Under the pieces are notes generated by a model. It did not search any database. It was not told the origin of the DNA and saw only the letters and a program-made list of their open reading frames with translations. Below, piece after piece: positions 13,009-46,183 of a stretch of 48,913 nt of DNA. This stretch comes from Modestobacter excelsi (GTDB lineage: Bacteria > Actinomycetota > Actinomycetes > Mycobacteriales > Geodermatophilaceae): the NCBI RefSeq assembly GCF_005930495.1, contig NZ_SJEX01000032.1:1-48913 (forward strand), given 5' to 3'. Position numbers and translations under genes: made by a program. Numbering within the stretch: position 1 is the stretch's first letter; each line of letters begins with the position of its first letter.

Positions 13009-13333
13009 GTGGGTCGTCCCTCTCCTGATGAGCGCCGGCGACCGCCGGTGCTTGTGCTGGTGCTGTCACTCACTTCGTGGAACCAACCCGGTGGGAGCCA
13101 GCACAGCGCAGCTGCAGCCGGGGTTCGTGGCAAATCCGACCTGGACACTCCTGGTCGGCGCGCTTCGTCGCTCCCAGCTAGCACCGCCGCGGACGCCTTC
13201 CGGGCGGTCCGCAGGTGTGACCGGGAGAACATCAAGACAGTATCCTGTTCTACGTCGGGCCGGAAGATCTGCGCGTGCGCCCGTCGTGCAGCCTCCGCCG
13301 GGCGGCCAGCCCCGGTCCGTCGTGTCGAGTCCG
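13009..13333. other. leader and promoter region of the alcohol dehydrogenase
   Basis: No gene is seen in these 325 bases. They hold the palindrome at 13235-13250 and, nearer the start codon, a hairpin with nine-base arms at 13032-13040 and 13043-13051 (one mismatch). The hairpin could shape the leader of the dehydrogenase mRNA. Confidence 0.5.
13235..13250. promoter_or_regulatory. AACAG-N4-CTGTT operator before the alcohol dehydrogenase
   Basis: AGACAG-TATC-CTGTTC shares spacing, centre and right half with the perfect site at 18230. Only the alcohol dehydrogenase gene reads away from it, so it should control that gene and the aldehyde dehydrogenase behind it. The size and symmetry suit a TetR-family dimer. 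The double-TetR protein at 23368 is the inferred binder. Confidence 0.55.
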
Positions 13334-14302
13334 TCATCGGGGCACCGGCGTGCGCGGCGGTGACCCGTCGAGGACGCATCGGACGTTCTCCACGGCCAGC
13401 CGGCCCATGGCGTCCCTCGTCGCGTCGCCGGCGCTGCCTATGTGCGGCAGCAGGACGACGTTGTCGAGGTGCCGGAGGCCTGGGTGCAACGCCGGCTCGT
13501 CCTCGTAGACGTCAAGCCCAGCACCGGCTATGACGCCGTCCTGCAGGGCAGACACGAGTGCGGCCTCGTCGACGATCGGCCCGCGGGCGGTGTTGACCAC
13601 GATGGCGGTGGGCTTCATCGCGGCCAGCTCCGCGCGACCGATGAGGTGGCGCGTGGCCTCGGTGAGCGGGCAGTGCACGGAGACGACGTCGCTGACGGCC
13701 AGCAACTGCGCCAGCTCCACGGCCTGCACCCCGAGCGCCGCCGCCTCGGAGCCGGCCGCCCGGCTGCCGGTCGCCACGACTCGCATGTTGAACGCTGCGG
13801 CCCGCCGTGCCACCGCCATCCCGATCCGGCCCAGGCCGATGATCCCCAGCGTCGCCCCGGCGCTGACGTCCAGACCCACGAAAGCCTGTGGGCCCCAGAT
13901 CCAGTCGGCACCGCTTCGGATGAACCTGTCCGCCTCGACGAGCCTGCGTGCTGCCGCGAGGATCAGCCCGAAGGTGCAGTCGGCGGTGGCCTCGTCCAGC
14001 ACTCCCGGGGTGTTGGTGACCGCCACTCCCCGGGACATCGCCGCCGAGACTGCGATGTTGTCGTAACCGACGGCGCAGTTCGCGACGATGCGCAGCCCAC
14101 TCCCGGTGGCGTCGAGCAACTCCTCGTCGATCTTCTCCGTGAGCAGCGAGATGATGGCCACGGCGCCGCGCACCGCGTCGAGGAGCTGGCGGCGCGACGG
14201 AGGCGCGTCCGGGTCGTCGTGGACGACCAGCGGATGACCGAGGGAAACGGCCGCCTCCATGGCGCCGGGGCTGAGCTGGCGGCTCACGTAGACGTGGTGC
14301 AC
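13334..14302 (-). CDS. D-2-hydroxyacid dehydrogenase (glyoxylate/hydroxypyruvate reductase type)
   Basis: GTG at 14302 follows GAAGGGG by six bases and fits the usual start (HHVYVSRQL), giving 322 residues. The Rossmann loop is GLGRIG at 156-161. The catalytic triad is Arg240 (NTARGPIVDE), Glu269 (YEDEP) and His287 (LLPHIGSAG). The family reduces 2-oxoacids or oxidises D-2-hydroxyacids with NAD(P). It begins 49 bases after the Baeyer-Villiger monooxygenase stop on the same strand, so the two are probably one transcript. A hydroxyacid released from the lactone may be its substrate; that is inferred. Confidence 0.87.
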   Translation of the reverse strand: MHHVYVSRQLSPGAMEAAVSLGHPLVVHDDPDAPPSRRQLLDAVRGAVAIISLLTEKIDEELLDATGSGLRIVANCAVGYDNIAVSAAMSRGVAVTNTPGVLDEATADCTFGLILAAARRLVEADRFIRSGADWIWGPQAFVGLDVSAGATLGIIGLGRIGMAVARRAAAFNMRVVATGSRAAGSEAAALGVQAVELAQLLAVSDVVSVHCPLTEATRHLIGRAELAAMKPTAIVVNTARGPIVDEAALVSALQDGVIAGAGLDVYEDEPALHPGLRHLDNVVLLPHIGSAGDATRDAMGRLAVENVRCVLDGSPPRTPVPR

Positions 14303-14351
14303 GATGTGCCCCTTCTGGACGACGTCGTCGCTGCACCGGGAGTCGGGTGTC

Positions 14352-15989
14352 TCAAGAGCTGAACTGGAAGCCCGCGTAACCGCTCGCGGCGACCTCGTCG
14401 CACTTCTGCCGGTAAGCGCCCACACCCCCCGCGTAGGGCATGAAGACCCGGGCCTTGCCCGGCACGTTCGCCCCCAGAAACCAGGAGTCGGTCCCCGGGA
14501 ACAGCGTGTAGGAGGCGAGGACGTTGACGTGGTCGACCCATTCGTCCTGCGCGGTCGGGGTTGCCTCGATCGTGGCCAGGCCCCGGCGCTCCATGTACGC
14601 GATCGCGTCGGACACCCAGTCCACGTGCTGCTCGATGGACACCACCATGTTCGACAGCACGGAGGGGCTGCCGGGGCCGGCGATCATGAAGAGGTTGGGG
14701 AAACCGACGGTACCGAGTCCGAGATAGGTCCGCGGCCCGGCCGCCCAGGCCTCCTGCAACGAGACGCCGCCTCGGCCCCGGACGTCGACGCGGGTGAAGG
14801 AGCCCGTCATCGCGTCGAATCCAGTGGCGTACACGATCGCGTCGAGCTCGTACTCGCGTGCCGACGTCCGGATGCCCGCTCCGGTGACCTCCGTCAGGGG
14901 CTCACGCTGCAGGTTGACCAGGCGGACATTGGGTCGGTTGAAGGCGTCGTAGTAGCCGGTGTTCAGGCAGGGCCGCTTGGACCAGAAGGGGTACTGGGGG
15001 GTGAGGTCGGCAGCGGTCTGCAGGTCGGTCGCGGCCTCGGCGATCTTGCGGTGCAGGAACTCCATCGCCAGGGCATTGGCGTCCAGATCCGTCTGGATGT
15101 CGGTGAAGGTGCCGACAAGGGCCGTCAGGCCCCCCGCCTGCCACGCCTCCTCGAAGGCTTGCTCGCGCTCCTCGGCGGAGGCCTCCAGCGCCGACTTGGT
15201 CGGCGGCTCCATCGGGACCCCGAAGCCAGACTCCCTCGCCGCCTTCCGGTAGGCGGGGTAGTCGGACTTCGCCGACGTCCCCTCCCCAGGCCGGAGGGGA
15301 CGGTTGTGAGCCGGGAGGGCGTAGGCGGGAGTCCGCTGGAACACCGTCAGCTCTGCTGCCTGCTCGGCGATGAGCGGGATGACCTGCACGCCGGAGGATC
15401 CGGTACCGATCACCCCGACCCGCTGGCCGGTGAAGTCGACTTCCTCGACGGGCCACTGGGCTGTGTGGTAGCTGACCCCCCGGAAGGACTCCAGGCCGGG
15501 GATCTCGGGCATCTTCGCAGCTGACAGGGAGCCGGTCGCCATCACCAGGAAACGAGTGGTGACCGTGTCCCCCCGCTCGGTGCGCACCTGCCAGCGGCGG
15601 CCACTCTCGTCGTACTGCGCGGAGGTGACGCTGGTGTCGAAGGCGATGTCCTTGCGCAGGTCGAAACGCTCGGCCACGTGCTGGAAGTAGCGCAGCAGCT
15701 CCGGCTGGGTGGCGAAGCGCTCCGACCACTCGAACTCCTGCTCCAGGTCGGGATCGAACGAGTAGGAGTAGCCGAAGCTCTCCACGTCGACCCGGGCACC
15801 GGGGTAGCGGTTGGCGTACCACGTCCCCCCGACATCGCTGTTGGCCTCGAGCACGACGGTGGACAGCCCCTGGGCGCGGAGCTTGTGCAGCATGTACAGG
15901 CCGGAGAGACCGGCCCCGACCACGACGACGTCCACGGTCCGGGGGATCGAACGCCCACCGGACTGAGCCTGGGCAAGGGCAGCAGGCAT
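14352..15989 (-). CDS. Baeyer-Villiger monooxygenase (type I, flavoprotein)
   Basis: ATG at 15989 follows GGAGG and gives 545 residues, normal for cyclohexanone/phenylacetone monooxygenases. The FAD loop is GAGLSG at 25-30 and the NADPH loop GTGSSG at 195-200. The diagnostic fingerprint FxGxxxHxxxWP is at 169-180 (FRGVSYHTAQWP). GGTWYANRYPGARVD near 54-68 is also typical. It inserts oxygen next to a ketone, giving an ester or lactone, using NADPH and O2. A D-2-hydroxyacid dehydrogenase follows and a PucR regulator lies upstream in the same direction. The esterase at 8870 could open the product. Ring size and substrate cannot be told. Confidence 0.93.
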   Translation of the reverse strand: MPAALAQAQSGGRSIPRTVDVVVVGAGLSGLYMLHKLRAQGLSTVVLEANSDVGGTWYANRYPGARVDVESFGYSYSFDPDLEQEFEWSERFATQPELLRYFQHVAERFDLRKDIAFDTSVTSAQYDESGRRWQVRTERGDTVTTRFLVMATGSLSAAKMPEIPGLESFRGVSYHTAQWPVEEVDFTGQRVGVIGTGSSGVQVIPLIAEQAAELTVFQRTPAYALPAHNRPLRPGEGTSAKSDYPAYRKAARESGFGVPMEPPTKSALEASAEEREQAFEEAWQAGGLTALVGTFTDIQTDLDANALAMEFLHRKIAEAATDLQTAADLTPQYPFWSKRPCLNTGYYDAFNRPNVRLVNLQREPLTEVTGAGIRTSAREYELDAIVYATGFDAMTGSFTRVDVRGRGGVSLQEAWAAGPRTYLGLGTVGFPNLFMIAGPGSPSVLSNMVVSIEQHVDWVSDAIAYMERRGLATIEATPTAQDEWVDHVNVLASYTLFPGTDSWFLGANVPGKARVFMPYAGGVGAYRQKCDEVAASGYAGFQFSS

Positions 15990-16132
15990 TGTTGTCCTCC
16001 GACAGCAGGATGGTTCGAGAGGGGGCGGTTCGCCTTGGCAGGTGCTCGTCCGGCCGGGAGTTGCGCGGAGCATCCCGGGCGGCTTGAGGGAGAAGCCTAG
16101 AGACGCGGTGAGACGCAGGTCACCCTCCAATT

Positions 16133-16164
16133 GGCGCCATTCCAGGGCTGGCCGGGCGCCATTC
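16133..16164. promoter_or_regulatory. direct repeats before the BVMO gene
   Basis: GGCGCCATTC occurs at 16133-16142 and again at 16155-16164, 22 bases apart, about two helical turns on the same DNA face. The pair lies in the 184-base gap between the PucR stop and the BVMO start. A PucR-type activator site is a reasonable guess; chance in GC-rich DNA is possible. Confidence 0.35.
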
Positions 16165-16173
16165 GGCGAAGGC

Positions 16174-17283
16174 TCACTCGATAGGAGGTGAGTCCCGGAC
16201 CCGCCGCAGCGCCAGCGCCAGCAGCAACCGGAACCGCCCGTAGGGCTGCGAGGTGGAGAAGCCCAGAGCCCGCTCGGCTGCCTGCAGCCGAGCCGCCACC
16301 GAGTTGTGGTGCAGGTGCACGAGGCTCGCCGCGCGCCGCAGCGACTCGGTCGCGGCCACCGCCTCGAGGACCCGGATCGCCTCCTCCCCTGACTCGAGCA
16401 CGATCCGGTCCAGTGCCTGCACGTCGGGCACACGCGCGATGTCCTCCGCCCGCAGGCCCTCCGCCAGGATCGCGAAGCCTCCTACCCGCTCCCCCGGGAC
16501 GCCCACGGCCTCGTTGTCGGTGTACGGCCCGCTCGCGTGCGTGCTGGGGAGGGCGAAGCGGAACCCCGTACGCGCCTGCTGCCAGGCCTGCGGCGCTTGC
16601 GCCGCGGGCCACGGCACGCTGTAGGCCATGCGGACACCCACCGGGATGTTCCACTGCCCGGGGACGGCGGGCTCCTCGGCGAGGACGGCCGTGACCTGGG
16701 AGAGCGCGGTCGCGTGCACGGTGGGCGAGACGTTCCTGATCTGGTCCACCACGGCTCCCACCGCCGCTGGCGACCCGGACACGGCGAACGCCCGCAGTGT
16801 GGAGTTGCCCGTGAGACGCAGTCTCCGGAGCGCGGGGATCCGGTCGACCTCACCGGTCCGGTCGCTGAGCACCGTGGCCAGCAACGAGTCCCGGTCCTGC
16901 GCGTCCGCCCCCGCGGCGAGCACCAGGCCTGCCACCACGACAAGACGCCTGAGGAGCAGTGCGTCACGGGGCTCAGGACCACCGGCCCGGTCCAACCAGA
17001 CCTCGCCCCCCCGGCGCAGCGGAGACCTCACGGCCCCGGCCGGGACCTGGCTGGCCCCCCGGACACCCGAGGGGCCAGTGCTGATGACCGCGCCCGTCGC
17101 CGTGCGAATCCCGACGGAGCAGCCGGCGAACGACGCCACCTGTCTCACCAGACCGGCCGCGTCCACCTCGTCGTCGAGCAGACCGTCGAAGAAGTCCACG
17201 ACGGCGAGCACGTCCTTGGAGTCGATCGGCTCGTTAGGGCCGCGCTGGTCGGACGTCACGGTAGATAGTCCGTGCGCGGCCAT
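16174..17283 (-). CDS. PucR-family transcriptional regulator
   Basis: ATG at 17283 gives 369 residues; a GTG at 17259 is the alternative, and neither has a clear ribosome-binding site. The N-terminal part (DFFDGLLDDEVDAAGLVRQV onward) is a sensor-like region. The C-terminal 55 residues hold the PucR helix-turn-helix (ESLRRAASLVHLHHNSVAAR, then LQAAERALG). It lies 184 bases upstream of the BVMO gene in the same direction and 67 bases after a deleted LLM gene. A decayed sister copy at 21045-21711 has the same LLM neighbour, so LLM-PucR is an ancestral pair. Control of the LLM or BVMO genes is inferred. Confidence 0.85.
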   Translation of the reverse strand: MAAHGLSTVTSDQRGPNEPIDSKDVLAVVDFFDGLLDDEVDAAGLVRQVASFAGCSVGIRTATGAVISTGPSGVRGASQVPAGAVRSPLRRGGEVWLDRAGGPEPRDALLLRRLVVVAGLVLAAGADAQDRDSLLATVLSDRTGEVDRIPALRRLRLTGNSTLRAFAVSGSPAAVGAVVDQIRNVSPTVHATALSQVTAVLAEEPAVPGQWNIPVGVRMAYSVPWPAAQAPQAWQQARTGFRFALPSTHASGPYTDNEAVGVPGERVGGFAILAEGLRAEDIARVPDVQALDRIVLESGEEAIRVLEAVAATESLRRAASLVHLHHNSVAARLQAAERALGFSTSQPYGRFRLLLALALRRVRDSPPIE

Positions 17284-17350
17284 GCGTCGGGGTGGGCACT
17301 GAGGGCCGCCGCGGGGACGACCTCCCCGGAGCAAGCCCCCAGGGGCCGTG

Positions 17351-17533
17351 TCACGCACCCGCCGCCAACAGTTCGGCGATCTCCATCCACTCCCGCACCG
17401 TCACTGCCTCCGGGCGCTGGGCGAGATCGGCGTCGTGCACCGCCGCCAGCAGCATGTGGTCGGTGGTCGGGTGTACCCACGCACCTCGCGACGTCCTCGT
17501 CGTCGATCCCGGCGCGAACCCAGCGGGAGGCAT
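17351..17533 (-). pseudogene. LLM monooxygenase reduced to its two ends
   Basis: A 60-codon open frame joins the first 35-40 residues of an LLM monooxygenase (MPPAGFAPGSTTRTSRGAWV, then HPTTDHMLL) to its last 20 (VTVREWMEIAELLAAGA). The matching ends of the copy at 21839-23170 are STTRTSLGAWMHPATDQRLL and TLRERMEIAERSSSGA. More than 380 internal codons are therefore deleted and the frame stayed open. The remaining peptide has no active site. The intact PucR gene follows 67 bases later, as in the sister module. Confidence 0.7.
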
Positions 17534-17592
17534 CAGACCAGTGCGCACGTGACCCCCAGACAGTGTGTCCGTCGCCCGTACCAACCGTTGTC

Positions 17593-17608
17593 GGACGGTA
17601 ACCTGCCT
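17593..17608. promoter_or_regulatory. decayed operator before the deleted LLM gene
   Basis: GGACGG-TAAC-CTGCCT followed by CAGGC lines up with GAACAG-TAAC-CTGTTC followed by AGGC at 23240, the site before the sister LLM copy. Symmetry is partly lost and one base is inserted. It stands 60 bases before the remaining LLM start, against 69 in the sister, which supports a duplicated promoter. Confidence 0.4.
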
Positions 17609-17705
17609 CAGGCTCCTGACGGCAGGACTGCGCCGCGGGTCGACCGCCCATCCCCGACGCTCCACCCCGGCCGACGTGCGCGGAGCCAGGCAAGACCGCT
17701 GGCCG

Positions 17706-18200
17706 TCACATGAGGCGGCGCATCGAGCTCACGAAGGTGCATCCCTCGTCGCCGGCCCGCCACCCGTGCGAGGCGGCCTGGAGCACCAGCGCGTCCCCCG
17801 CCCGCAGCGTGACGTCTCCCTCGTCCAGGACCAGCGCCACCTCGCCGCTGATCACGAACAGCAGGTCCAGCGTCGAGGTCGCGTGTGCCTTGGACGTGCG
17901 GCCCGGTCCCCAGATGTGGTACCGCCAGGTCAGACCCTCCGGAGCGGGTTCCATGGTGAACGCCGTCGCGCCGGCGGACAGATCGGTGGCGACGTCCGCT
18001 GCCGCCCCACCCGGGCTCTCCCACAGATGGACGATGACGGCGTCCGAACTGGTCACCTCGTCCGGGATGGTCGCCAACTGCACCGACGGCAACCCGCCAC
18101 CGACCCGGAAGATGACCGGACCTCCGTCCGTCCCCACCGAGGCCTCGCTGATCACGAGGGACCTGCCCGCTTCGTTCGTCCCGGCCACGACGCGTCGCAT
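17706..18200 (-). CDS. cupin-domain protein (copy 1)
   Basis: ATG at 18200 has AGAGGTGG upstream and gives 164 residues. The N-terminus MRRVVAGTNEAGRSLVISE is shared with the equally long copy at 45639-46133. A single cupin barrel spans about 95-150 (STLDLLFVISGEVALVLDEG, then AGDALVLQAASHGWRAGD). His106 and His145 are candidate metal ligands kept in both copies, which could mean an enzyme or a small-molecule sensor. The family's reaction is not known to me. It is divergent from an epimerase gene, and a perfect palindromic operator lies 30 bases before its start. Confidence 0.82.
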   Translation of the reverse strand: MRRVVAGTNEAGRSLVISEASVGTDGGPVIFRVGGGLPSVQLATIPDEVTSSDAVIVHLWESPGGAAADVATDLSAGATAFTMEPAPEGLTWRYHIWGPGRTSKAHATSTLDLLFVISGEVALVLDEGDVTLRAGDALVLQAASHGWRAGDEGCTFVSSMRRLM

Positions 18201-18223
18201 GGAACCACCTCTCTCTACGATGC

Positions 18224-18245
18224 TTGACAAAACAGTATCCTGTTT
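18224..18245. promoter_or_regulatory. divergent promoter with perfect operator palindrome
   Basis: AAACAG-TATC-CTGTTT at 18230-18245 is a perfect inverted repeat around a four-base centre. A consensus -35 box TTGACA at 18224-18229 abuts it on the plus strand, so a bound protein would cover the spacer of a promoter reading toward the epimerase. No strong -10 is seen. The site is 30 bases before the cupin and 57 before the epimerase, so both may be controlled together. Confidence 0.65.
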
Positions 18246-18301
18246 CGAATCGCATAGCCAGACGCATTGGCGCGCCGGGCGGCGGACCGGGAGGGAAGTA
18301 C

Positions 18302-19243
18302 ATGGCCAACGTCCTCGTGACCGGCGGTACCGGACTGATCGGGTGGGCGACGACGGAGCGTCTGGCTCAGGACGGGCACCGCGTCGTCGTCTACGACAAG
18401 AGTCCTGACCTGGACAACCTGGCCACCGTCCGGGACGACGTGGCCGTCGTCCAAGGCGACATCACCGACGTCAACTCCCTGCTCCGGACGGCGAAGAGCC
18501 ACCATGTGGACCACATCGTTCACCTGGCAGCCTTCATCGCCCACGAGGGCGCCGGGCTCCCGGCGGAGTCGATCCACGTCAACGTCCGCGGCCTCGCCAA
18601 CGTCTTCGACATCGCTCTCGCCCTCGACGTCCGGCGGGTGGTCTGGACCAGCTCCATCGCCGCGATGAATGTTGGCCCCGACTACGACGGGACCCCTGTG
18701 GACGAGAGCTTCGTCGCTGCCCCGGTTACCCCGTACGGGATCTCCAAGTACGCCTGCGAGGCAGTGGCCGCCGTCTACAACCGGGCCCGGGGGCTGAGCT
18801 CCGTCGGCCTCCGGCCGCAGATGGCCTACGGCTTCGGTCGGCTCACCGGGCGGGTCGGGGAGTTCAACGCCGCCGTGCGGCAGATCGCCCTGGGCCTCCC
18901 GGCGACGGCTGACTTCGACATGGGCTCCCAGCCGGTCCAGCCGATCTACAACCGGGACTATGGGCGGCTGATCTCCTCGGCGCTGTTCACCTCGACGTCG
19001 CTCTCCTCTCACATCTACAACACCCCGGTCGAGCGGAACTACACCTGGTCGGAGATCGCCGACGAGATCCGGGACCTGGTCCCGGACGCCGACTTCACGT
19101 TGGGGCCCCGCCCCGCCGCCTACGCACGTACACCCGTGACCGACGGTGCCCTCGCCGCCCGGGAGCTGGGCTTTACACCGCAGTACACCCTGCGGGACGG
19201 ACTGACCGAGATGATCCGCCACTACCGGGGAGCGGGACGATGA
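18302..19243 (+). CDS. NAD-dependent epimerase/dehydratase family protein (extended SDR)
   Basis: ATG at 18302 follows GGGAGGGAAG and gives 313 residues. The cofactor loop TGGTGLIG is at 7-14 and the catalytic pair Tyr145/Lys149 in PYGISKY, with Ser117/118 in TSSIAA. This is the extended SDR fold of nucleotide-sugar epimerases, 3-hydroxysteroid dehydrogenases and related reductases. With no sugar genes nearby, it more likely oxidises or reduces a hydroxyl/keto group of the catabolic substrate. Its stop overlaps the ATG of a decayed LLM gene by four bases (ATGA), so the two once formed an operon. The shared operator at 18230 lies upstream. Confidence 0.85.
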   Translation: MANVLVTGGTGLIGWATTERLAQDGHRVVVYDKSPDLDNLATVRDDVAVVQGDITDVNSLLRTAKSHHVDHIVHLAAFIAHEGAGLPAESIHVNVRGLANVFDIALALDVRRVVWTSSIAAMNVGPDYDGTPVDESFVAAPVTPYGISKYACEAVAAVYNRARGLSSVGLRPQMAYGFGRLTGRVGEFNAAVRQIALGLPATADFDMGSQPVQPIYNRDYGRLISSALFTSTSLSSHIYNTPVERNYTWSEIADEIRDLVPDADFTLGPRPAAYARTPVTDGALAARELGFTPQYTLRDGLTEMIRHYRGAGR

Positions 19244-20225
19244 GCACCGAGGACGGTCGACCAGTACCGCTGCGGTTCTCCCTCTTCCCGCCCTGACCCC
19301 CAGCGGACCGGTCGGCGCACCACGGCACCATCCCGGCGCCACCCACTTCGACTTCCTAGACCTCGGCCACCGGACCCGCCTCGTGCAGGCCATGGAGGCC
19401 GCTCGCTTCGACGGGCGTCTTCTGGGCCGACGTCCGCGGTGTCCACGACGTCATCGAGTCCTCACCAGAGGCCTCACGGCGCCACGCGGTCCAGCTCCCG
19501 CTCGGTGACCCGCTCATCGGCACCGCTGCGCCGGCCAGCGCGACGGAGGCGATCGGCTTCGCCTCCAGCGCAGGCGTCATCGAGGACCAGCCGCATGCCT
19601 TCGCGCGTCGGGTGGCCACCCCTGGACCACCTGACCCGCGGGTGGGTCGCCTCGACCATCGTGCCGTCCTACCAGCCTCCGCCCACGCCACCTCAGGTAC
19701 GACACGATGGAGGACTACGCCGAGCGCTACGCCCGGGCGCAGGAGTACGTCGACGTGGTGCACGAGCTCCTCGTCGACTCATGGAGGACGGAGCGGTCGT
19801 CCGGGACGTCGACCGGCGGCTCTACGCCGAGCTCGGCCGCGTCCACCCGTCGATCACGACGACTCCGCTACCGCGGCCCGGGCATCGGGCTGACAGAACC
19901 CTTACCGCAGCGGATGCCCGTGCTCTTCCAGGCCGGCGGCTCTGATGACGGCCTGGACTTCCCGCTCGCACCGCGGAGGCGTCTTTCGTCTCGACCCGCC
20001 ACTTCCGGGTGCCGAGGCGTTCGTGCAGGACGTGGCTGCGCGACTGGAGAGCCACGGACATGCCCGCCCCGACATGCTGATCCTCCAGCGATCGCGTCTG
20101 ACGGTGGTCAGGATCGAGCAGGAGGGGATGCGGGAGAACCAGGAGCTCAACGGCCACCTCGAGCCCAGGCGACGCCGGCCCTCTACAGCTCGACAGCCGG
20201 CACGGACTTCCCGGACAGACTTTGA
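19240..20225 (+). pseudogene. LLM monooxygenase, decayed (relative of the gene at 46716)
   Basis: It begins at an ATG overlapping the epimerase stop. Pieces in changing frames follow the intact 437-residue protein at 46716 block by block: early HPGATHFDFLDLGHRTRL; VQLPLGDPLIGTAA; FARRVATLDHLTRG; YAERYARAQEYVDVV; IGLTEPLPQRMPVLFQAGGS; and ALYSSTAGTDF near 20215. An early stop comes after only 18 codons, there are at least four frameshifts, and the last 125 or so residues are missing. It is plainly inactive. Confidence 0.85.
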
Positions 20226-20334
20226 CCCCCCGGTGGGACGTCGCCACACGCACTCCCGGGGCCTGACGACCCGGGCAGTCCGGCCACCGCACTGTCGCGC
20301 CCGGGGCCGTCGGCGTCCGTTGATCGTCCACCGG

Positions 20335-21028
20335 TCAGCCGCGCAGCAGCAGACAACACCAGGAAGGACGCCGGACGACGTCTGACCGGGATCGAGTGGT
20401 CGGGGCCAGACGTCGCGGAGGCGCCGAACCGTCAGTGTCCGCCCCGGTCGTGGGGGTGACGACGACGTTGATGGCCTTCTCACCGGGCACCTTGTTGGTC
20501 AGCAGGTCGATCGCGTAGGGCAGTTCGTCGTAACCGACCACGTGGGTCCGCATCTTGTGCAGCGGGACCGCCGCCGCCGCGACCAGCTTGGCCGCCGCCG
20601 CGTTGGCGTCGGTGCTCTGGCTCGTCGCACCGATGATGGTGACCCGCTCGGGCGACGACCTTGTCGACCGGGACTCCGTCCATGAGCCGGCTCTTGATGC
20701 CGGCCAGGACGATCCGCCCGCCCGGGCGCAGCACGTCCAGGGCATCGCTGATCGGGGCGGTGGCGCGCGGAGTCGTGTCGACCACCACGTCGACACCGCG
20801 GCCGCCGGTCAGCTCGAGCACCCTGTCCACCGTGCTCTCGGACTCGACGTCGATGACGGCATCAGCACCGAGCTCCAGGGCCAGGTCGAGCTTGTGCCGA
20901 TCAACCGCGAGTCCGGTGGTGATGACCAGGCCGGCGCCCACGCTCCTGGACGCAACAACGTTGGCCAGACCGCGCTGACCGCTCCCCAGGACCAGGACCG
21001 ACGTCCCCAGGCTGACGCCCCTTCTCAT
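20335..21028 (-). pseudogene. medium-chain alcohol dehydrogenase fragment
   Basis: Only the nucleotide-binding half remains. It starts at 21028 (LGTSVLVLGSGQRGLANVV) and continues through VDVVVDTTPRATAPISDALD and PGGRIVLAGIKSRLMDGVPV. One base change near 20650-20660 shifts the frame, and the other frame goes on with RVTIIGATSQSTDANAAAAK to VPGEKAINVVV. The catalytic GroES-like domain with its zinc ligands is missing; PucR-derived sequence takes its place upstream. It is a rearranged, inactive fragment. Confidence 0.75.
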
Positions 21029-21044
21029 CGTCGGTCGGTGGGCG

Positions 21045-21711
21045 TCCCAACGCGGTGCGGGACCCGTAGGGGTGTTCTGCTGCGCCGGGACGGCGGTGGG
21101 CTCCGCGCAGGGATCCCGGTGTCCGACTGGTCAGATCGGCGTCAGTCGGACGCGGTGCGGCATGCCATTCCGCAGGGAGCGCAGCTCCAGGACCCAGGTC
21201 GGGCCTCGTCGACGCGTCGTCACCCGCGGTCGCACGAGCGATACAGGCGGAGGGCAGCCTAGCGAGAGGAACCGATTCACATGCCTCGGCGGAGTACTGC
21301 CCGCCAGTCCGTCCCGGGCAGGTCCGGACAAGTGGCCGCCCACACCACGGACCACGGCGGGCGCCAGGATCGAGACCACTGCACTGCTGAACTTTCCGCC
21401 TCGCCCACCACCTCGGTCGCCAGCCATCCGGGCCTCCCCTGCGCTGGACCGCCGCCCGCACGACGACGACACCGGTGTCCGCAGGTCCAGTCACAGCTCT
21501 CCGCCACGGCGCGACGGTCACGTCGTTGCTCTGGCCGGGATGTGGGGCCGGCTCCGGGCGCCGAGGGGCTTCCGCTGATGACAGCGCCCTGTCGCCGTGC
21601 GGATGCCGACAGCGGATGCCGGTGAACGCCGCCGCGGACCTCTCCAGGACGGCGGCGTCGAACTCTTCGCCGAAGAGCCGGTCGAGAGGGCCAGGACACA
21701 TGCTCGTACAC
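21045..21711 (-). pseudogene. PucR-family regulator, N-terminal relic
   Basis: Scattered frames match the N-terminal half of the intact PucR at 16174-17283. Near 21690 it reads LDRLFGEEFDAAVLERSAAA; then VGIRTATGRCHQ/ATGAVIS (intact VGIRTATGAVIST); and near 21080-21100 AEPTAVPAQQNTPTG, matching EEPAVPGQWNIPVG. The C-terminal helix-turn-helix is lost and a dehydrogenase fragment follows. It lies 127 bases after an LLM stop, the same order as at 16174-17533. Confidence 0.6.
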
Positions 21712-21838
21712 CGACCGGGCCGGTCGTCTCGGTGCCCGTCCGCAGGTTCACGGCAGGCGGACCTACCCGACGGCCCGGCCGGCCGGCGCGTGCTGACCCA
21801 CGCTGCGACCCTCCTGGGGTGGGTTCGCAGCGGCCCTG

Positions 21839-23170
21839 TCAGGCACCCGACGACGACCGTTCGGCGATCTCCATCCGCTCCCGCAGGGTGCCGGCCGAGT
21901 TCGCAGTCCGCGGCAGGCCACGGCGCCGCAGCTCAGGCACGACCAACCGGGTGAAGTCCTCGAAGGACCCGGGGACGTCCGTCGGCATGATCGCGAAGCC
22001 GTCGCACGCGCCACCGGTGAACCACTCCTCCATCTGGTCGGCCACGTCAACGGCGGTCCCGACGAATCGGACACCGCTCTGGATGGTCCGCGCCCGGGCG
22101 AGGTCACGGAGGGTGGCATCTGGACCGAACAGGCTGCGCGCGCCGGCGATGAAGGACTTCATCAGGCCCTGGGAACCAGTGACGACGTCGACCCACTCGT
22201 CCTTGACCGGTTCGTCCATGGGCAGCTGGGAAAAGTCGAAGTTGGTCTGCTCGGACATGAAGATCAGCTGCTCGGTGGGATCGGACAGCGACTGGAAGTA
22301 CGCCTCCTTGGCCTGGGCCATCTCCCGGGTCTCCGCGACGATCGGCATCACCGCGGGCAGGACGGCGACCGTGTCCGGGTCGCGCCCCTCGGCGGTGACC
22401 GCAGCCCGCTGCGCCTCGTAGTGGGTCTGCGCGTCGGCGCGGCCGCGAGGACTGGTGAAGGTCAGGTCGGCCCAGCGCGCGGCGAACCGCATCCCTCGAC
22501 CGGACTGCCCGGCCTGCAGCAGCAGCGGCCATCCTTGCGGTGGGCGGGGGACGGTGAGTGGACCACGAGAGCGGAACCACTGCCCCTCGAAGCCGAGCTC
22601 GCGCACCTTCGTCGGATCCGCGAACACCCCGGTCCCCCGGTCCATCTGGAGGGCGTCACGGTCCCAGGTCTCCCACAACCCGGTCACCACCTCCAGGAAC
22701 TCGTCCGCCCGGTCGTACCGGCCGGCGGGGTCGGTGAACTCGACCCCAACGTTCTCCGCCTCGTTGCTGTTCAGCGAGGTCACGATGTTCCACACAGCCC
22801 GCCCGCCGGACAGGTGGTCGATGGTCGCGAACACCCGGGCCACGTGATAGGGGTTGTGGTAAGTCGTTGAGTACGTCGCGCCGAGCCCGATGGTCGTCGT
22901 GGTCGCCGCGACGCGCCGAGGATGGCGACGAGGTCGAGCTTGACGGCCCGGGCCCCTCGCTCGACGGTCCCGGCCACCGAGTTCCCGTAGGCCCCCGGCA
23001 TGGCGAGGCGGTCGTCGAAGAACACGAGGTCGAAACCGCCGTCCTCCAGGCTCTGCGCCAGGTCGACGTAGTTAGCGCGCCGTCAAGAGTCGCTGGTCGG
23101 TGGCCGGGTGCATCCACGCGCCCAACGACGTCCTCGTAGTCGACGCGGACGCGAACGCGGCAAGAGACAT
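21839..23170 (-). pseudogene. LLM monooxygenase with two frameshifts
   Basis: From ATG 23170 the first frame gives STTRTSLGAWMHPATDQRLL. The frame shifts near 23085 to NYVDLAQSLEDGGFDLVFFD and runs to LDLVAILG. It shifts again near 22915 to VAATTTTIGLGATYSTTYHN and then stays open to the stop at 21839. With both shifts repaired it would have about 443 residues, normal for NtaA/SnaA-type enzymes. The conserved blocks DHLSGGRAVWNIVTSLN and GWPLLLQAGQSGRG are intact, so the damage is recent or partly a sequencing artefact. A perfect operator lies 69 bases upstream. A PucR relic follows. Confidence 0.8.
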
Positions 23171-23238
23171 CGGTCCAGTCCGCACGCAACCCCCAGGGTG
23201 TGTTCCAACGCCGAACACATGACCGGCGCCCGGGCAGG

Positions 23239-23256
23239 TGAACAGTAACCTGTTCA
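23239..23256. promoter_or_regulatory. perfect operator between LLM copy and double-TetR gene
   Basis: TGAACAG-TAAC-CTGTTCA is a perfect 18-base palindrome. It sits 69 bases before the minus-strand LLM gene and 112 before the plus-strand double-TetR gene. A TetR-family regulator next to a palindrome of TetR size suggests autoregulation and identifies the likely binder of the other copies at 13235, 18230 and 46168. Confidence 0.65.
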
Positions 23257-23367
23257 GGCGAACGGGGACCAGAGTGGCATGGCCGCGCCGACCCGTCCTG
23301 GGATGGGTGACCCTCGAGGCGGGCACGCGATGCTGTGTCCCCACATCATCGGCGAGAGGGCTCCTCA

Positions 23368-24531
23368 GTGGTATACAGCACCGAACAGTCCGAGCGGGGA
23401 GCGGCCATCACAGCCGCTGCAGCCAGACTGTTTGCCACCCGCGGTTTCAACGGCGCAGGCATGGACGACATCGGTGCCGCAGTCGGCATGAGCGGGCCGG
23501 CGCTGTACCGCCACTTCCGGAGCAAGCAGGAGCTCCTCGCGGCAGTCGTCGACCAGCTCCAGCGGACCCTCCTCGAGGCCGTCGACGACGACGAGAAGGT
23601 CGACCTCGGCCGGGTGATCGCGGCAGTCATGGCGCACGGCGACGCCCTCGCCGTGGCGCTGCGCCAGGCGCGGCACCTGGATCACCAGCGCGCCCCTGAC
23701 CAGCTGCGGGTCAGGACCGCGCGGCTTCAGGACCTCTGGGCTCGCCATGAGTCCGCCCGTCACCCGCACGAGGACCAACCGACCTCAGCCGTCCGTCTCC
23801 GGGCCGCGGCAGGCGCCGTGGTCGGACTGTCCTTCGCGAAGTCGGGCGCGCTCTCATTGCGGACAGGGCTCGCGGAGGACATCACCAGCCGCATCCTGTC
23901 GATCGACCTGACGGAGCCGCTCACCCCGCCCGATCCCGACCTCCGCGGCGCCCCCCGCGACCTCGCGTCCCTGACCGGGGCGCTGCGGCGGGAGGCGATC
24001 CTCGCCGTCGCCGCCCGGCAGTTCGCCGACAAGGGTTTCCACGGCACGAGCCTCGGTGACATCGGTGCGATGGTGGGGATCACCGGCAGTGCGGTGATGC
24101 GTCACTTCACCAGCAAGGAGGGGTTGCTCGAGGCCTCGTTCTCCCGACTCGCCGACAACATCACCGAGCGCATCTACCGGCAGATCACCGCTGACGTGGC
24201 GCCCCTCGTGCGGCTGTCCCAGATGATCGACGACTACACCGAGCTCGCCCTGCGCAGCGCGGACCTGGTGGTGATCAACATGACCGAACTGCGCTGCCTG
24301 CCGGTCGAGTACCAGCGCGAACGTCGACGCAGCCAGCGGATGTACGTCAACGAACTGGCACAAGCGGTCATCGCCACCCAGCCAGGACTGGATGAGCTGG
24401 AAGCACGGCTACGCGCCCAAGCCGCCTACGCCCTGATCAACGAGGTCGTGGCCGACGAGCGCTTGGTCCACCTGCACGGACTGCGTACCGACCTGCGCGT
24501 CCTCGCCGAGGCCGCCGTCGTCCCGAGCTGA
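23368..24531 (+). CDS. double-HTH TetR/AcrR-family regulator
   Basis: GTG at 23368 follows GAGAGGG and gives 387 residues, about twice a normal TetR protein. Two full TetR DNA-binding domains are present: residues 12-58 (FATRGFNGAGMDDIGAAVGM, ALYRHFRSKQELL) and 206-252 (FADKGFHGTSLGDIGAMVGI, AVMRHFTSKEGLL). Each is followed by a helical ligand-domain-like segment of about 130 residues. One chain may thus act like a covalent TetR dimer. It converges on the thiolase operon and is preceded by a perfect palindrome, its probable own operator. It may control the LLM, cupin and alcohol dehydrogenase genes that carry the same site. Confidence 0.9.
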   Translation: MVYSTEQSERGAAITAAAARLFATRGFNGAGMDDIGAAVGMSGPALYRHFRSKQELLAAVVDQLQRTLLEAVDDDEKVDLGRVIAAVMAHGDALAVALRQARHLDHQRAPDQLRVRTARLQDLWARHESARHPHEDQPTSAVRLRAAAGAVVGLSFAKSGALSLRTGLAEDITSRILSIDLTEPLTPPDPDLRGAPRDLASLTGALRREAILAVAARQFADKGFHGTSLGDIGAMVGITGSAVMRHFTSKEGLLEASFSRLADNITERIYRQITADVAPLVRLSQMIDDYTELALRSADLVVINMTELRCLPVEYQRERRRSQRMYVNELAQAVIATQPGLDELEARLRAQAAYALINEVVADERLVHLHGLRTDLRVLAEAAVVPS

Positions 24532-27200: not shown

Positions 27201-27208
27201 CTCTCCCC

Positions 27209-30069: not shown

Positions 30070-30191
30070 CAGGACTGTCCTCACTCGTCTGCCCGGGGCC
30101 GCAGTGGCAGCACCGGCTCGCCGACACCTGGGGGACGCACGTCGACCCGCACGTCTTCTCTCCCGAGGCTAAGACCCTGGCCTTCAGCATG

Positions 30192-30295: not shown

Positions 30296-30328
30296 GTCGG
30301 ATGTCGGAGCACGCCGGTGGGAGTCGAG

Positions 30329-31917: not shown

Positions 31918-31923
31918 GAGCGA

Positions 31924-34288: not shown

Positions 34289-36056
34289 GCCGGACCCCCC
34301 TCGGGCAGCAGTTCGACCGGGATGTCCAGGACCCGCGCCCGCACGACCTCTCCCAGGCTCTTGGCCTGCGGGTCGTAGCGCACGCTGGAGGCCACGCCCT
34401 CGCCGAGGAGACCCCGGATGACGAAGTTGAGCCCGCGGATGTTGGGGAACACGAATCGGTCGATCGGGTAGCCGGCGAACTCCGGGTAGAGCTCGACGAA
34501 GGCCTCGGTCGTCAGGGTGTGGCACAACCAGGCCCACTGCTCGTCCCGGCCCACCCAGAGGCCGAGGTTGGCGTTCCCCCCCTTGTCCCCCGACCGTGCC
34601 GCGACGATGGCCCCCAGCGGGCTGGGTCGCGTCGGGCCGTGGTCCTCCCGGGGCGGGAGCGAACCTGCGGGGATCTCCCCTGCGGTCACCGCGGGGGTCA
34701 CCGCGGAGACCTCGAAGGTCTCCCCGTCGAACTCCACCTGCGCGGAGCACAGCGTCGCCGGGAGGAGGGCGGGCCAGTGGACCGCGTACGCCGTGGGCTT
34801 GCTCGGGGCGCTCTGGGTGAACTTCCCCGCGTACGTCGACAAGGACATCTCGTTGACCACGCGGACGAAGCGCGCCACCTTCGCCGCGTCGGCGTCCTTG
34901 ACGTACAGGGACAACTGGGCGCTGGGGATGTCGCCGAACTCCCCCGTCCGGTCGGAGACCCACCGCAGGCGCGAGCCCGCCACGTCGAAGTGGTCGGTGC
35001 CGCCGTCGAAGGCAGCCCAGATCTGACGCTCGGCCAGCGCCGCCTTCTCCTCGATCTGCAGGCCCATCATCCCGAACGTGGCACCTGACCGGTACCCGCC
35101 GTGACGGTTGATCGAGACCTTCACGTCCGGGGGCGCCGGCTCACCCCGGGCACCGCTGATCCGGACCCGGTCAGGTCCTTCCTGCTCGAGCACCACCGTG
35201 TCGAAGCGGGCCACGACGTCCGGGTTGGGGTACCGGGGCCCTTCGATCTCGTAGAGGAACTGCGCAGTGACCGTCCCCACCGTGACGGCGCCGCCGGTCC
35301 CCTCGTGCTTGGTGATGACCGCGGATCCGTCGGCGGCGATCTCGGCGATGGGGAAGCCCGGCCGCTCCAGCCCCGGCACCTCGGTGAAGAAGGCGTAGTT
35401 GCCCCCGGTGGCCTGACAGCCGCACTCGATGACGTGACCCGCGGCGCACGCACCGGCCATCGCGTCCCAGTCCGACCGCTCCCACCCGTGGTACCAGGCG
35501 GCCGGACCGATGACGACCGCGGCATCGGTGACCCGCCCCGTCACCACGATGTCCGCACCCCGCCCCAGGGCCTCGGTGATGGCCCATCCTCCGAGGTAGG
35601 CGTTGGCACTGACGGGGACGACGTCGCCCAAGGGTGCACCGGTGTCCATGTGCGCCAGCGGATGACCGTCGGCCTGCAGATCTGCGATCCGCGGCAGGAT
35701 GTCGTCGCCTGCGACCACGGCGATGCGTGGCGAGAGCCCTTGCCGTTCCGCGACCTCGCGCAACGCGTCGGCACATGCCTGGGGGTTGAGCCCACCGGCG
35801 TTGCTGACGACCTTGATGCCCTTCTCGAGGCACGTGCCCATGACGGCTTCCATCTGCCGCACGAAGGTGCGCGCATACCCACCGCGGGGGTCCTTCTTGA
35901 GATCCCGGGACAGGATGAACATCGTCAGCTCGGCGAGCCAGTCGCCGGTGAGGACGTCGATCTGCCCGCCGTCCACCATCTCCCGAGCGGCCTCGAAGCG
36001 GTCCCCGTAGTAGCCGCTGCAGTTCGCGATCCGGACGGGGCGCTTCTCCGCCCCTG

Positions 36057-36060
<4 letters not shown>
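34285..36060 (-). CDS. AtuA-like acyclic terpene utilisation family protein
   Basis: The product is 591 residues. The N-terminal 450 or so follow DUF1446 (IANCSGYYGDRFEAAREMVD, VVSNAGGLNPQACADALR, ADIVVTGRVTDAAVVIGPAA). The last 110 form the AtuA-like ferredoxin-fold part (AARSGDKGGNANLGLWV, VFPNIRGLNFVIRGLLG). In Pseudomonas, AtuA is required for citronellol/geraniol growth, but its reaction is unproven. Here it is coupled by four-base overlaps to a biotin carboxylase upstream and a TIGR03084-type gene downstream, the same company as in the atu cluster. Confidence 0.87.
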
Positions 36061-38002
<1,942 letters not shown>

Positions 38003-38003
<1 letters not shown>

Positions 38004-39640
38004 CACAGTCTGAACACCCCGTAGGTCCGGGTGCCCTCGACAGCCGCGTTCGCGCTGACCGACAGGCACATGCCGATGACGTCCCGGGTGTCCCGGGGGT
38101 CGATGATTCCGTCGTCGCTCACCGCGCCGGTGGCCTCGAGGGCCAGCGAAGCCCGTTCCTGACGTGCTTCGGCGGCCGCCACGAGTTGACGGTCCTCGTC
38201 TTCGTCGAACGGCCGACCGGCCCGGGCAGCCTGCTCACGGCGCACGATGGACATGACCCCGGCGATCTGCTTCGGTCCCATCACGCCGATCCGGGCCGAG
38301 GGCCACAGGAAGGTGAAGCGGTTGCCGAACGACCGGCCCGACATCCCGTAGGTGCCCGCGCCGTAGGAGGCACCGATGATGACGGTGACGTGCGGGACCG
38401 CCGAGGTCGAGACGGCATTCACCAGCTGCGAGCCCTTCTTGATGATGCCGTCCCGCTCGAAGTCGCGTCCGACCATGAACCCCGTGAGGTTCTGCAAGAA
38501 CACCAGCGGGACGTCCACCTGGTTGCACAGCTGGATGAACTGCGCGCCCTTGGACGCGGAGTCGGGCAGGATCACCCCGTTGTTCCCCAGGATGCCCACC
38601 CGGTAGCCGTGGATGGTGGCCCACCCGCACACCAGCGTGGACCCGTACTCGCGCTTGAACTCCTCGAACCGGGATCCGTCGGCGATCCGCGCGATGACGT
38701 CCCTGACCTCCACCGGCGTCGCCAGGCCCTCACCGAACAGGCCGAGCAACTCTTCGGGATCTGAGCGCGGTGCCTCTGCCTGGGCGATGGGCGCGGGGCC
38801 CTGCTTGCGCCAGTTGAGGTGACTCACGACCTCTCGGCACATCCGGATCGCGTCGGGTTCGTCCTTGGCGAGGTAGTCGGCCAGGCCGGAGACCTCCGCG
38901 TGCATCCGGGCACCGCCCAGCGTCTCGTCATCGGACTCCTCGCCGGTCGCCATCTTGACCAGGGGAGGACCGGCGAGGAACGCCTTGGACTTTCCCTCGA
39001 TCAGGATCGTGTAGTCGGACATCCCCGGTTGGTAGGCGCCGCCGGCGGTCGCAGAGCCGAACACCACGCATATCGTCGGGATCCCGGACTTGGACAGCTG
39101 TGCCATGTCGTGGAAGTAGCGCCCGGTCTCGGCGAAGTGACTCGTCCTGATCTCCGAGCCCGGGTCCGCGCCACCCCCCCGGCGCAGGTCCGCCCCCGCC
39201 GACTCGACGAAGCTCACGTAAGGGATGCGGTTCGCGCGCGCGATCTCCAGGGCGCGCATCCACTTCTTGGTGGAGTACGGCTGCAGTGCGCCGCCCACCA
39301 CCGTGGGGTCGTTGCCGCAGATCACGCACTCCACGCCGGCGATCACACCGATGCCGACGACGAACCCGCCGCCGATGGCGTAGGGCGACTCCCACGCCGC
39401 GAGTGGGCTGATCTCCAGGAAGGGTGCGCCCGGGTCGAGCACCAGCGAGATGCGCTCCCGGATCGACAGCTTTCCCCGGGCCGCGTGCCGCTGCTGTGCC
39501 TTCACGCCCCCGCCGAGCGCGGCCTGGTCCAACAGCTCCTGCAGCCCCTCGAGGCGGTCGAGCATGAACTCGCGGTTCTCTCGGAACATCTCGCCTCGGG
39601 TGTCCAGCTCCGAGACGAGTGCGCGCACGTCGTTGACCAT
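38003..39640 (-). CDS. acyl-CoA carboxylase beta subunit (carboxyltransferase)
   Basis: The product is 545 residues, typical of methylcrotonyl/geranyl-CoA carboxylase beta chains. N-terminal blocks: ARGKLSIRERISLVLDPGAP and ICGNDPTVVGGALQPYSTKK. C-terminal half: GILGNNGVILPDSASKGAQF, FLQNLTGFMVGRDFE and GASYGAGTYGMSGRSF, the oxyanion-forming glycines. It transfers carboxyl from biotin to the acyl-CoA. It is the first gene of a six-gene operon with one- to four-base overlaps. A palindrome at 39863, shared with the GntR promoter, lies 223 bases upstream. Confidence 0.93.
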
Positions 39641-40119
39641 GGGCTCGCTCTCGTGGGCAGTCGATGGGTTCGAGAAGTGACGGTGGGGTGCTTTTACCGA
39701 GTGGCAGTGGCACCGGGGGGACGATCAGGGCCGCAGCGACGCAGGATCGGGCCCGGCACGGCTCGCAGGTGCCGGCCTCGCTCGGCCGACGGACGTACTG
39801 CCGGACTCCACGTACCGGCCGTCGAGCGCGTGTGCCAGGCACGCCTCTCAGGTCCGGTCGTGAATAGACTCCTATTAAAGACCATGAACTATGCGGTGTC
39901 CACCACCCCGACAACACGAGGGCGGCGGCCCCCGCACACCGACGCCGACGAGGTCGACCGCGGAGCGGCGACCCGGTGAACCGCCGGCAGCGGGCGGGCC
40001 GCACGCCGCCGGCGCCGCGGGGTCACCGGCTCACGATGCGCCGACGGGGCGACGAGCACCCACGTATCCGGCCGAGCGGCGCTGGTCGACGGACCCTCGA
40101 CCGCTACCGCGCGTGGGGA
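39641..40119. other. gene-free region before the carboxylase operon
   Basis: No gene is seen in these 480 bases. They hold the carboxylase promoter and the palindrome at 39863-39876, embedded in a short AT-rich patch (about 39860-39895) that stands out from the GC-rich surroundings. The GntR gene ends at the far side. Confidence 0.5.
39863..39876. promoter_or_regulatory. AATAG-N4-CTATT palindrome before the carboxylase operon
   Basis: AATAG-ACTC-CTATT is a perfect inverted repeat followed by AAAG. Read on the other strand it is CTTTAATAGGAG, nearly the same as CTTTAATAGGCC at 41165 in front of the GntR gene. Two matching sites beside a FadR-type gene suggest that regulator as the binder. Confidence 0.55.
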
Positions 40120-40968
40120 CTAGCGGGCTGTCCGGACCTCGCTCAGCGGGAGCCAGCTCTCGAACCGCGACCAGTCCGCCGAGAGGAAGAACCGCTCCTG
40201 TGCGTCCAGGTGACGCAGCATGCGACGCCGCGCCACCTCGGCGTCGCCGGCGATGATCGCCTCGACGATGCGCTCGTGCACGTGGCTGCCCTCGGCGCTG
40301 GCGTCACGGATTTCCTCGGCGCCGTGTCCGGCGGCCCAGGTGAAGAGGAGGTCACTGAACATCCGGGCGGACACGTCGCCGAAGAGCCGAATCATCGGGT
40401 TCCCGCTGAGTTCGGCGATCAGTACATGGACGTCGTGGAACCCCGGGGACCTGGGCCCACCCACCTGCCGACGCTCCAGGTCGTCGGCGTACTGCTGCTC
40501 GCTCGACACCGCCTCCCTCAAGCGGGCCGCGCCGGCGGGGTCGATGCGGCTGGCTGCGAGCTCCACCGCGGTCACCTCTATGGACTTACGCGCTTCGAAG
40601 AGATCGGCGATGCTCGCGCCCTGGTACTGCAGGAGGAGTGCCAGCGAGCGGACCGCGCTGTAGGAGTCCGGCTCCGTGACCATCAGTCCCCCGCCACGCC
40701 CACGACGTGACCGGGCCACGCGATGGTGCTCCAGCAGCCGGATTGCTTCGCGCAGGACACCCCGACTCACGCCGTAAGTCTCCAGCAGCTCGGCCTCGGT
40801 CGCGAACAGCTCACCGACGGGCCACCCGCGGGCCACGATGTCCCGCTCGATTCGCATGGCGATCTCCTCGCCGAGCTTCAGATCGTGCGACCGCTCGTCG
40901 GGGACTCTCTGCACCACGGGCGCAACTCCATCCGATCCGTTGCCGGCTGACGCCTCGGGGCTGCCCAT
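40120..40968 (-). CDS. GntR-family regulator, FadR/FCD subfamily
   Basis: ATG at 40968 gives 282 residues; no strong ribosome-binding site is seen and the first 25 residues are low-complexity. The winged helix spans about 30-97 (ATEAELLETYGVSRGVLREA, LLEHHRVARSRRGRGGGLMV). The C-terminal all-helical FCD domain has FEARKSIEVTAVELAASRI, a conserved His in FHDVHVLIAELSGNP and HVHERIVEAIIAGDAEVARR. Such domains bind carboxylates, often through a metal. It is divergent from the CoA ligase and downstream of the carboxylase promoter; the shared palindrome suggests control of both and of itself. Confidence 0.9.
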   Translation of the reverse strand: MGSPEASAGNGSDGVAPVVQRVPDERSHDLKLGEEIAMRIERDIVARGWPVGELFATEAELLETYGVSRGVLREAIRLLEHHRVARSRRGRGGGLMVTEPDSYSAVRSLALLLQYQGASIADLFEARKSIEVTAVELAASRIDPAGAARLREAVSSEQQYADDLERRQVGGPRSPGFHDVHVLIAELSGNPMIRLFGDVSARMFSDLLFTWAAGHGAEEIRDASAEGSHVHERIVEAIIAGDAEVARRRMLRHLDAQERFFLSADWSRFESWLPLSEVRTAR

Positions 40969-41548
40969 GTCGTCATGAGAATAGACCACGGCCGGCGGCC
41001 CGAGACGTGTCGACTCGGGATCCTCCCCGGCCGCGGCAGTGGCGCGCTCGACGTGCGGGTCCGCCAGCGACGCGGCGGCCGACACCACTTCGGACAGACG
41101 CCTCAGGCACCCATCGCCGACGAGCGGCAGGACGGCGTGGGCTGGACATCACCATCACGGTCACCTTTAATAGGCCCCTGTTCCGATCCGACGGAGTGAC
41201 TCATGACCGCCCCTCCCCCGCGCACTGACTGCCCGCCTGCGGAATGGACCTGTGTGGTGCCGGGGGGTCGTCACACGGGGCATCCGTACGCCCCGCTCCC
41301 CGGCCCGCGGCGGCCAGCCACTCGGGCGAGGGTCGGTGAAGGCCGGCACGGTGGTGTGCATGCGGGAAACCGGCCCGGGACCGTACCGGGTCTCCGGCCG
41401 AGAGCAGGCGCAGGTAGACCGCGCCGCAGAGGTCAGTCGTCGTGGGCCGCGGGCTGACCAGCCGGTGTCCTGACCTGCCGACGCCACGCTGGTGCATCCG
41501 AGCCACCGCACGCCCCACACCACAGCCGAGACCACAGGAGAGTCCGCC
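40969..41548. other. divergent region between GntR and CoA ligase genes
   Basis: Promoters for both genes should lie here. The AATAG-type palindrome at 41169 is 201 bases before the GntR start and 380 before the ligase. Short open frames around 41200-41470 have no recognisable content and are not called. Confidence 0.5.
41169..41182. promoter_or_regulatory. AATAG-N4-CTGTT site in the GntR/ligase divergent region
   Basis: AATAG-GCCC-CTGTT, preceded by CTTT, matches the site at 39863 in nine of the ten arm positions. It would allow autoregulation of the GntR gene and control of the ligase. Confidence 0.5.
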
Positions 41549-45638: not shown

Positions 45639-46133
45639 TCACTCCAGTGCGCGCATCAGGTGCACGAACGTGCAGCCCTGGTCCCCGGCCTTCCAGCCGT
45701 GCTGGGCAGCTTGCAAGACGAGGGCGTCTCCCGCCTGGAGGGTGACGTCCCCCGTGTCCAGGCGCAGCGTGATGTCTCCACTCAGCACGTGCATCAGGTC
45801 GAGGGTGTTGGTCTTGTGCGGCTCGGCGGTGTGACCTGCCCCCCAGACGTGGTACCTCCAGTAGAGCCCGCCGGCTCCGGGTTCCATGGCGAAGTCGGTC
45901 GCATCAGACGCCTCGTCGACGGCCACGTCGGCCGCGGCCGAGCTGCCGCTCTTCCACAGGTTGACGATCAGTACGTCCTCGGTGCGGATCTCCTCGGGGA
46001 TGCCGGGGACCTTGACGTTCGGCAGACCACCACCGACGCGGAAGGCGGCCGGACCGTCCGCGCTACCCACCACGGATTCGCTCAACACGAGCGACTTGCC
46101 TTCTTCGTTCGTCCCTACGACCACGCGTCGCAT
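45639..46133 (-). CDS. cupin-domain protein (copy 2)
   Basis: ATG at 46133 gives 164 residues, the same length as the copy at 17706. The start MRRVVVGTNEEGKSLVLSE and the blocks FRVGGGLPNV, WRYHVWGAGHT and AGDALVLQAAQHGWKAGDQG are nearly identical to copy 1. The cupin barrel spans about 95-150, with His near 106 and 145 as likely metal ligands. It is divergent from an intact LLM monooxygenase starting 582 bases away; copy 1 was likewise near an LLM gene of the same subfamily, now decayed. A variant of the AACAG-type operator lies 35 bases before its start. Confidence 0.83.
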   Translation of the reverse strand: MRRVVVGTNEEGKSLVLSESVVGSADGPAAFRVGGGLPNVKVPGIPEEIRTEDVLIVNLWKSGSSAAADVAVDEASDATDFAMEPGAGGLYWRYHVWGAGHTAEPHKTNTLDLMHVLSGDITLRLDTGDVTLQAGDALVLQAAQHGWKAGDQGCTFVHLMRALE

Positions 46134-46167
46134 CAGGTGCTTCCTCCTTGGTGCGCATGTTGACCGC

Positions 46168-46183
46168 AAATGGTAGCCTGTTT
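46168..46183. promoter_or_regulatory. operator before cupin copy 2
   Basis: AAATGG-TAGC-CTGTTT keeps the spacing and right half of the palindrome at 18230. GC before and GC after extend the symmetry to 20 bases (GCAAA...TTTGC). It lies 35 bases before the cupin start, very like the 30 bases for copy 1. Confidence 0.5.

Follow-up and report, generated by a model that had tools for sequence, protein, structure and literature searches.

Does a short palindrome that recurs before catabolic genes of Modestobacter excelsi define a local regulon, and which protein would read it? The question is raised by contig NZ_SJEX01000032.1, a stretch of 48,913 bases that was analyzed as a whole (hereafter the window; contig C106 of a genome of 5,255,906 bases in 178 contigs). 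A first-pass annotation had described here a repeated AACAG-N4-CTGTT element and, next to one copy of it, a gene encoding two TetR units in one chain. Our analysis suggests, with a probability of about 0.65, that the palindrome is the switch by which this double-TetR regulator controls breakdown genes as well as its own gene.

Candidate operator sites and their over-representation

Three near-identical 14-base sites are present in the window, at 13236 (GACAGTATCCTGTT), 18231 (AACAGTATCCTGTT) and 23241 (AACAGTAACCTGTT). They lie about one base further on than the positions 13235, 18230 and 23239, for which good sites had been claimed, and can be regarded as strong on solid grounds. Around the third of them, the arms TGAACAG and CTGTTCA are without mismatch from 23239 to 23256 (7+4+7 bases), in agreement with the earlier description as perfect over 18 bases. 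A hold-out matrix built from these three best sites alone, with 150 shuffles as background, gave scores of 15.2 for 46169 (AATGGTAGCCTGTT) and 14.9 for 945 (expected per window at a score of at least 15: 0.19). The former is supported as a genuine site, and the word good, originally used for it at 46168, appears generous for an imperfect palindrome with two mismatches in one arm. The latter, introduced as a weak sixth site at 944, is plausible. A decayed fifth site had been placed at 17593; at 17594 the matrix score is 10.7, with chance expectations per window of 5.3 at a score of at least 10 and 2.7 at a score of at least 11, and since this falls within the chance range the candidate was dismissed as noise.

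13236..13249, minus strand: operator-like site AACAGGATACTGTC (sense), 227 bp 5′ of the alcohol dehydrogenase gene
18231..18244, minus strand: operator-like site AACAGGATACTGTT, 30 bp 5′ of the cupin1 ATG, also upstream of the divergent epimerase gene
23241..23254, minus strand: operator-like site AACAGGTTACTGTT with perfect 7-base arms (23239-23256), between LLM1 (a luciferase-like monooxygenase, LLM) and the double-TetR gene
46169..46182, minus strand: imperfect site AACAGGCTACCATT, 35 bp 5′ of the cupin2 ATG, hold-out score 15.2
945..958, plus strand: weak site AATGGGTTACTATT, 5′ of the gene for the flavin reductase, hold-out score 14.9
17594..17607, minus strand: the supposed decayed site GGCAGGTTACCGTC, score 10.7, not above chance

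In a scan of all 14-mers, for which the motif was not chosen beforehand, no word in the window was more over-represented than AACAGGATACTGTT (log10 tail -10.4); the next unrelated word had -7.5 and the best of 40 dinucleotide shuffles -7.0. This unbiased scan replaced an earlier palindrome-family statistic, which had the GC-rich word CGACG as its top family and was uninformative on the motif. Exact AACAGN4CTGTT occurs twice in the 5.26-Mb genome, both times in the window, and AACAGTANCCTGTT at up to one mismatch three times, again always in the window. All five sites match the degenerate pattern AAYRGGNTACYRTY when read on the strand of the neighboring gene, the strand being our choice for the three sites that lie between divergent genes. 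All five genomic matches to this pattern fall in the window (control: 0), a count that is partly circular as the pattern was built from the five window sites. AAYAGN4CTRTT was found five times, with four matches in the window (control: 0).

Genome-wide, the strict forms thus occur in the window only. Looser ones are common and reach control level at three mismatches (130+111 in the genome versus 127+130 in the control). Because looser forms are not particular to the window, a loose matrix will not work genome-wide. Among 13 two-mismatch matches outside the window, eight lie in coding-like frames and a further one (on contig C36) is doubtful, as judged by eye from codon bias. One of the 13, at C142:30294, is placed like an operator, 36 bp 5′ of a GHMP-kinase-like gene, a gene unrelated to the window set. 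Chance similarity would be in line with the three-mismatch counts, and also with the ten matches to the arm pattern at two mismatches in the window, which compare with 6.0 expected and, being matched by nine of 100 shuffles, are weak evidence. However, the strict, degenerate and AAYAGN4CTRTT counts and the distance between -10.4 and the best shuffle leave very little room for this explanation. The palindrome is more than chance.

All five sites lie outside curated genes, given that the starts of cupin1 and cupin2 were set to their shared ATG and that the epimerase gene was taken to begin at 18302, an ATG in frame; with the original starts, 18231 and 46169 sit within over-long reading frames. 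Because the strict and degenerate motif is confined to the contig and the five sites are located outside curated genes, the local regulon proposed at the outset is well supported.

The double-TetR protein as candidate binder

23368..24531, plus strand: double-TetR regulator of 387 amino acids (398 if started at 23335) with two TetR_N domains, the proposed binder

With two TetR_N stretches in a single chain close to 400 residues long, the encoded protein is of the double-TetR (Mce3R) type, and it matches PDB 9b7y (Mce3R) over its full length. The fold predicted for it is likewise that of Mce3R-type proteins, a pseudo-dimer of two units (M1 and M2) within a single chain. A family scan of 40 reading frames of the window, including the neighbors of the regulator gene on both sides, revealed it as the sole TetR domain among these frames. 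It fits as candidate binder in fold, genomic place and sole-TetR status. The position of the inverted repeats, upstream of genes and in one case at the gene of the regulator itself, is that of a TetR-type regulon with operators in putative promoter regions.

In the best reading, AACAG-GNTA-CTGTT would serve a local repressor as its operator, and this repressor is most likely the double-TetR protein. Its two TetR units are predicted to pack together into a pseudo-dimer, and the two recognition helices would read the two half-sites, the centres of which are 9 bp apart. The operator would overlap the -10 region (TACnnT) of the target promoters, presumably those of the alcohol/aldehyde dehydrogenase unit, cupin1 and the divergent epimerase gene, cupin2, LLM1, the regulator gene and possibly the gene for the flavin reductase. 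A pathway compound or acyl-CoA taken up by the ligand domain might then release the repressor, and its release would switch on the oxidative steps with which breakdown by a catabolic island begins.

The sites might also be bound by a different regulator. PucR-type (16174-17358), GntR/FCD (40120-41088) and MerR (6281-7069) regulators are all encoded in the window, and the binder could also be a TetR protein encoded elsewhere in the genome. As an inverted repeat, the motif is of the usual TetR-like kind. The TetR query gave 43 first-look genome candidates, so that other TetR proteins are likely to exist. Nevertheless, the best palindrome adjoins the double-TetR gene and the confinement of the strict forms to the contig points to a local, co-inherited regulator, which makes another binder unlikely.

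An explanation of a different kind would be a promoter or another cis element, such as a shared -10 region or the site of an activator, or else a remnant of segment duplication, with symmetry being secondary. TAnnnT is the pattern of the -10 box; TACnnT, retained in five of five sites, is compatible with it. The duplication that links cupin1 with cupin2 (62% identity) also takes in the sequence upstream of each. However, no evident likeness was seen by eye between the flanks of 13236, 18231 and 23241, and a -10 box does not need retained arms of five and seven bases. A common element would moreover be expected genome-wide, which AAYRGGNTACYRTY is not, and we consider this explanation improbable.

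Genes next to the sites

11884..13008, minus strand: zinc-binding alcohol dehydrogenase (ADH)
10437..11906, minus strand: aldehyde dehydrogenase, overlapping the ADH gene
17706..18200, minus strand: cupin1, start reset to the ATG common with cupin2
18302..19243, plus strand: NAD-dependent epimerase/dehydratase family protein with a start set by us
19284..20250, plus strand: broken LLM2 copy, read in shifted frames
21839..23170, minus strand: LLM1, N-terminal part in shifted frames, ATG at 23170 putative
45639..46133, minus strand: cupin2
46716..48029, plus strand: LLM2, intact luciferase-like monooxygenase, best plasmid matches named NtaA/DmoA family
1150..2427, plus strand: flavin reductase domain and, behind it in the same reading frame, a weak IclR_C match

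The LLM copy reported at the palindrome at 23239 is indeed adjacent to it as LLM1, but its reading runs through several shifted frames, which marks it as either a pseudogene or an error of the assembly. It belongs to a decaying stretch (19284-23170) that also contains the broken LLM2 copy and an ADH fragment (20480-21028). The 62% identity of the cupins together with the broken LLM2 copy behind the epimerase gene suggests that a unit of cupin, operator and LLM was probably duplicated, and that one copy decayed thereafter. At both cupin1 and cupin2, purine-rich stretches separate the site from the ATG.

Conservation in other genomes

Matches to the double-TetR protein at E ≤ 1e-20 were obtained in 53 of 146 genomes (own genome included), the best non-self match having 39% identity, and at E ≤ 1e-45 the own genome was the only one among 396 genomes of the phylum. 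A first contig scan for relatives of the regulator found none. A second one yielded 80 loci with 28-42% identity, most of them over about 470 bases, corresponding to one TetR unit; longer matches were seen at four loci (L036, L037, L079, and L083), and no locus was accepted as an orthologue. Similarly restricted were the motif, present in the own genome alone among 394 genomes of the class, and the cupin, present in the own genome alone among those of the order (1/298). For the cupin, a search of 5.8 billion proteins at E ≤ 1e-3, confined to proteins with shared short exact words (283 candidates), found no relative beyond the two copies of the contig.

Cupins with 33-34% identity are encoded on three Rhodococcus plasmids, which also carry double-TetR proteins of 28-30% identity. 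On one of them, WAY2, the cupin gene adjoins genes for an NAD(P)-dependent oxidoreductase and an aldehyde dehydrogenase. The Rhodococcus opacus stretch (L131) has one two-copy palindrome family with ACATCG arms. Relatives of LLM2 are found on plasmids of Rhodococcus DMU1 (55%) and Sphingobium (52%), and the FAD oxygenase has plasmid matches, too; both are uninformative on the motif.

Comparison with known systems and weight of the reading

The literature used comprises PMC11667970, PMC3511530, PMC3920632, PMC2277422, and PMC4482099. Mce3R (Rv1963c) of Mycobacterium tuberculosis (PDB 9b7y) is a double-TetR repressor that, in the excerpt of the paper describing it, is presented as the first double-TetR structure reported, with an asymmetric operator consisting of two 25-bp sites without palindrome; the same excerpt refers to a prediction of 204 putative double-TetR proteins for Actinomycetes. 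As no mce/yrbE family was found in the 40 reading frames scanned, the neighbors of the regulator included, the protein studied here is not classed as Mce3R itself. BkaR/Fad35R (Rv2506) contains one TetR unit and binds as a dimer, with a core GTTANTN4ANTAAC that is unlike AACAGN4CTGTT. AtuR is described in the excerpt of PMC3511530 as a TetR-like repressor of its divergent neighbor. The window resembles AtuR-type acyclic terpene utilisation in that a gene of the AtuA family adjoins biotin carboxylase and carboxyltransferase genes, and differs from it in that the 40 frames scanned contain no single-unit TetR. A second characterized double-TetR operator was not present among the matches listed from the open-licence PMC literature.

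Several observations weigh against an operator of the double-TetR protein. The candidate sites are near-perfect palindromes, unlike the non-palindromic sites given for Mce3R in the excerpt. Upstream of TACnnT there is no good -35 box (at best three of six matches), a sigma-70 promoter scan of 12900-24000 found none, and the 227 bp from 13236 to the ADH start amount to a long leader. Sites 18231 and 46169 are not independent, because both precede duplicated cupin genes. When one mismatch in the arms and any centre are allowed, the genome has 57 sites, compared with 29 for the reversed control, and four of the 57 are in the window. Furthermore, the hold-out matrix revealed no above-chance site near LLM2 or before the beta-oxidation genes (24585-39640), barring palindromes of a different, AATAG type. 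The motif within two mismatches is also absent from the stretches around the cupins of the three Rhodococcus plasmids (L131-L133), even though L131 also covers a gene for a 28% double-TetR protein. This absence counts against an old, shared operator, although the proteins concerned are only distantly related.

Catabolic genes under a TetR regulator are nothing unusual in themselves. Since the operator of Mce3R is not palindromic, the novelty would lie in a palindromic operator for a double-TetR protein. A more detailed model can be put forward tentatively, at somewhat less than even odds: unlike Mce3R, the single-chain pseudo-dimer may read a near-perfect palindrome with an asymmetric centre (GGNTA) that would overlap the -10 box, and the non-identical heads may dock in a fixed direction, giving a polar repressor-promoter unit that recurs throughout a catabolic island undergoing decay and duplication. 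If regulation by the double-TetR protein is true, it would represent a second double-TetR system, with a short, symmetric and repeated operator that shows how a fused heterodimer reads DNA, and the three strong and two weaker sites provide a ready test set. It would also join LLM oxygenases, cupins and dehydrogenases, the substrate of which is to be found, in one inducible response and thereby aid the search for this substrate.

Other features of the window

The region 24585-39640 contains genes for AtuA, biotin carboxylase, carboxyltransferase, three enoyl-CoA hydratases, an HpcH-type lyase, and a thiolase, next to genes for a ChsH2-type OB-fold protein, an acyl-CoA dehydrogenase, an SDR, and a MaoC protein. 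This set, which is without the main palindrome, resembles one for terpenoid or branched-acid breakdown.

Palindromes of the form AATAG-N4-CTRTT at 39863-39876 and 41169-41182 flank the GntR/FCD regulator gene and lie upstream of the carboxyltransferase gene and an AMP-ligase gene. The genome has only one further palindrome of this kind, at C28:5578, close to genes of the ABC-transporter and periplasmic-binding type, and these elements may belong to another regulator. On the plus strand, TGGACA-N17-TTTAAT (41143-41171), which by eye resembles a good promoter, runs into the palindrome at 41169.
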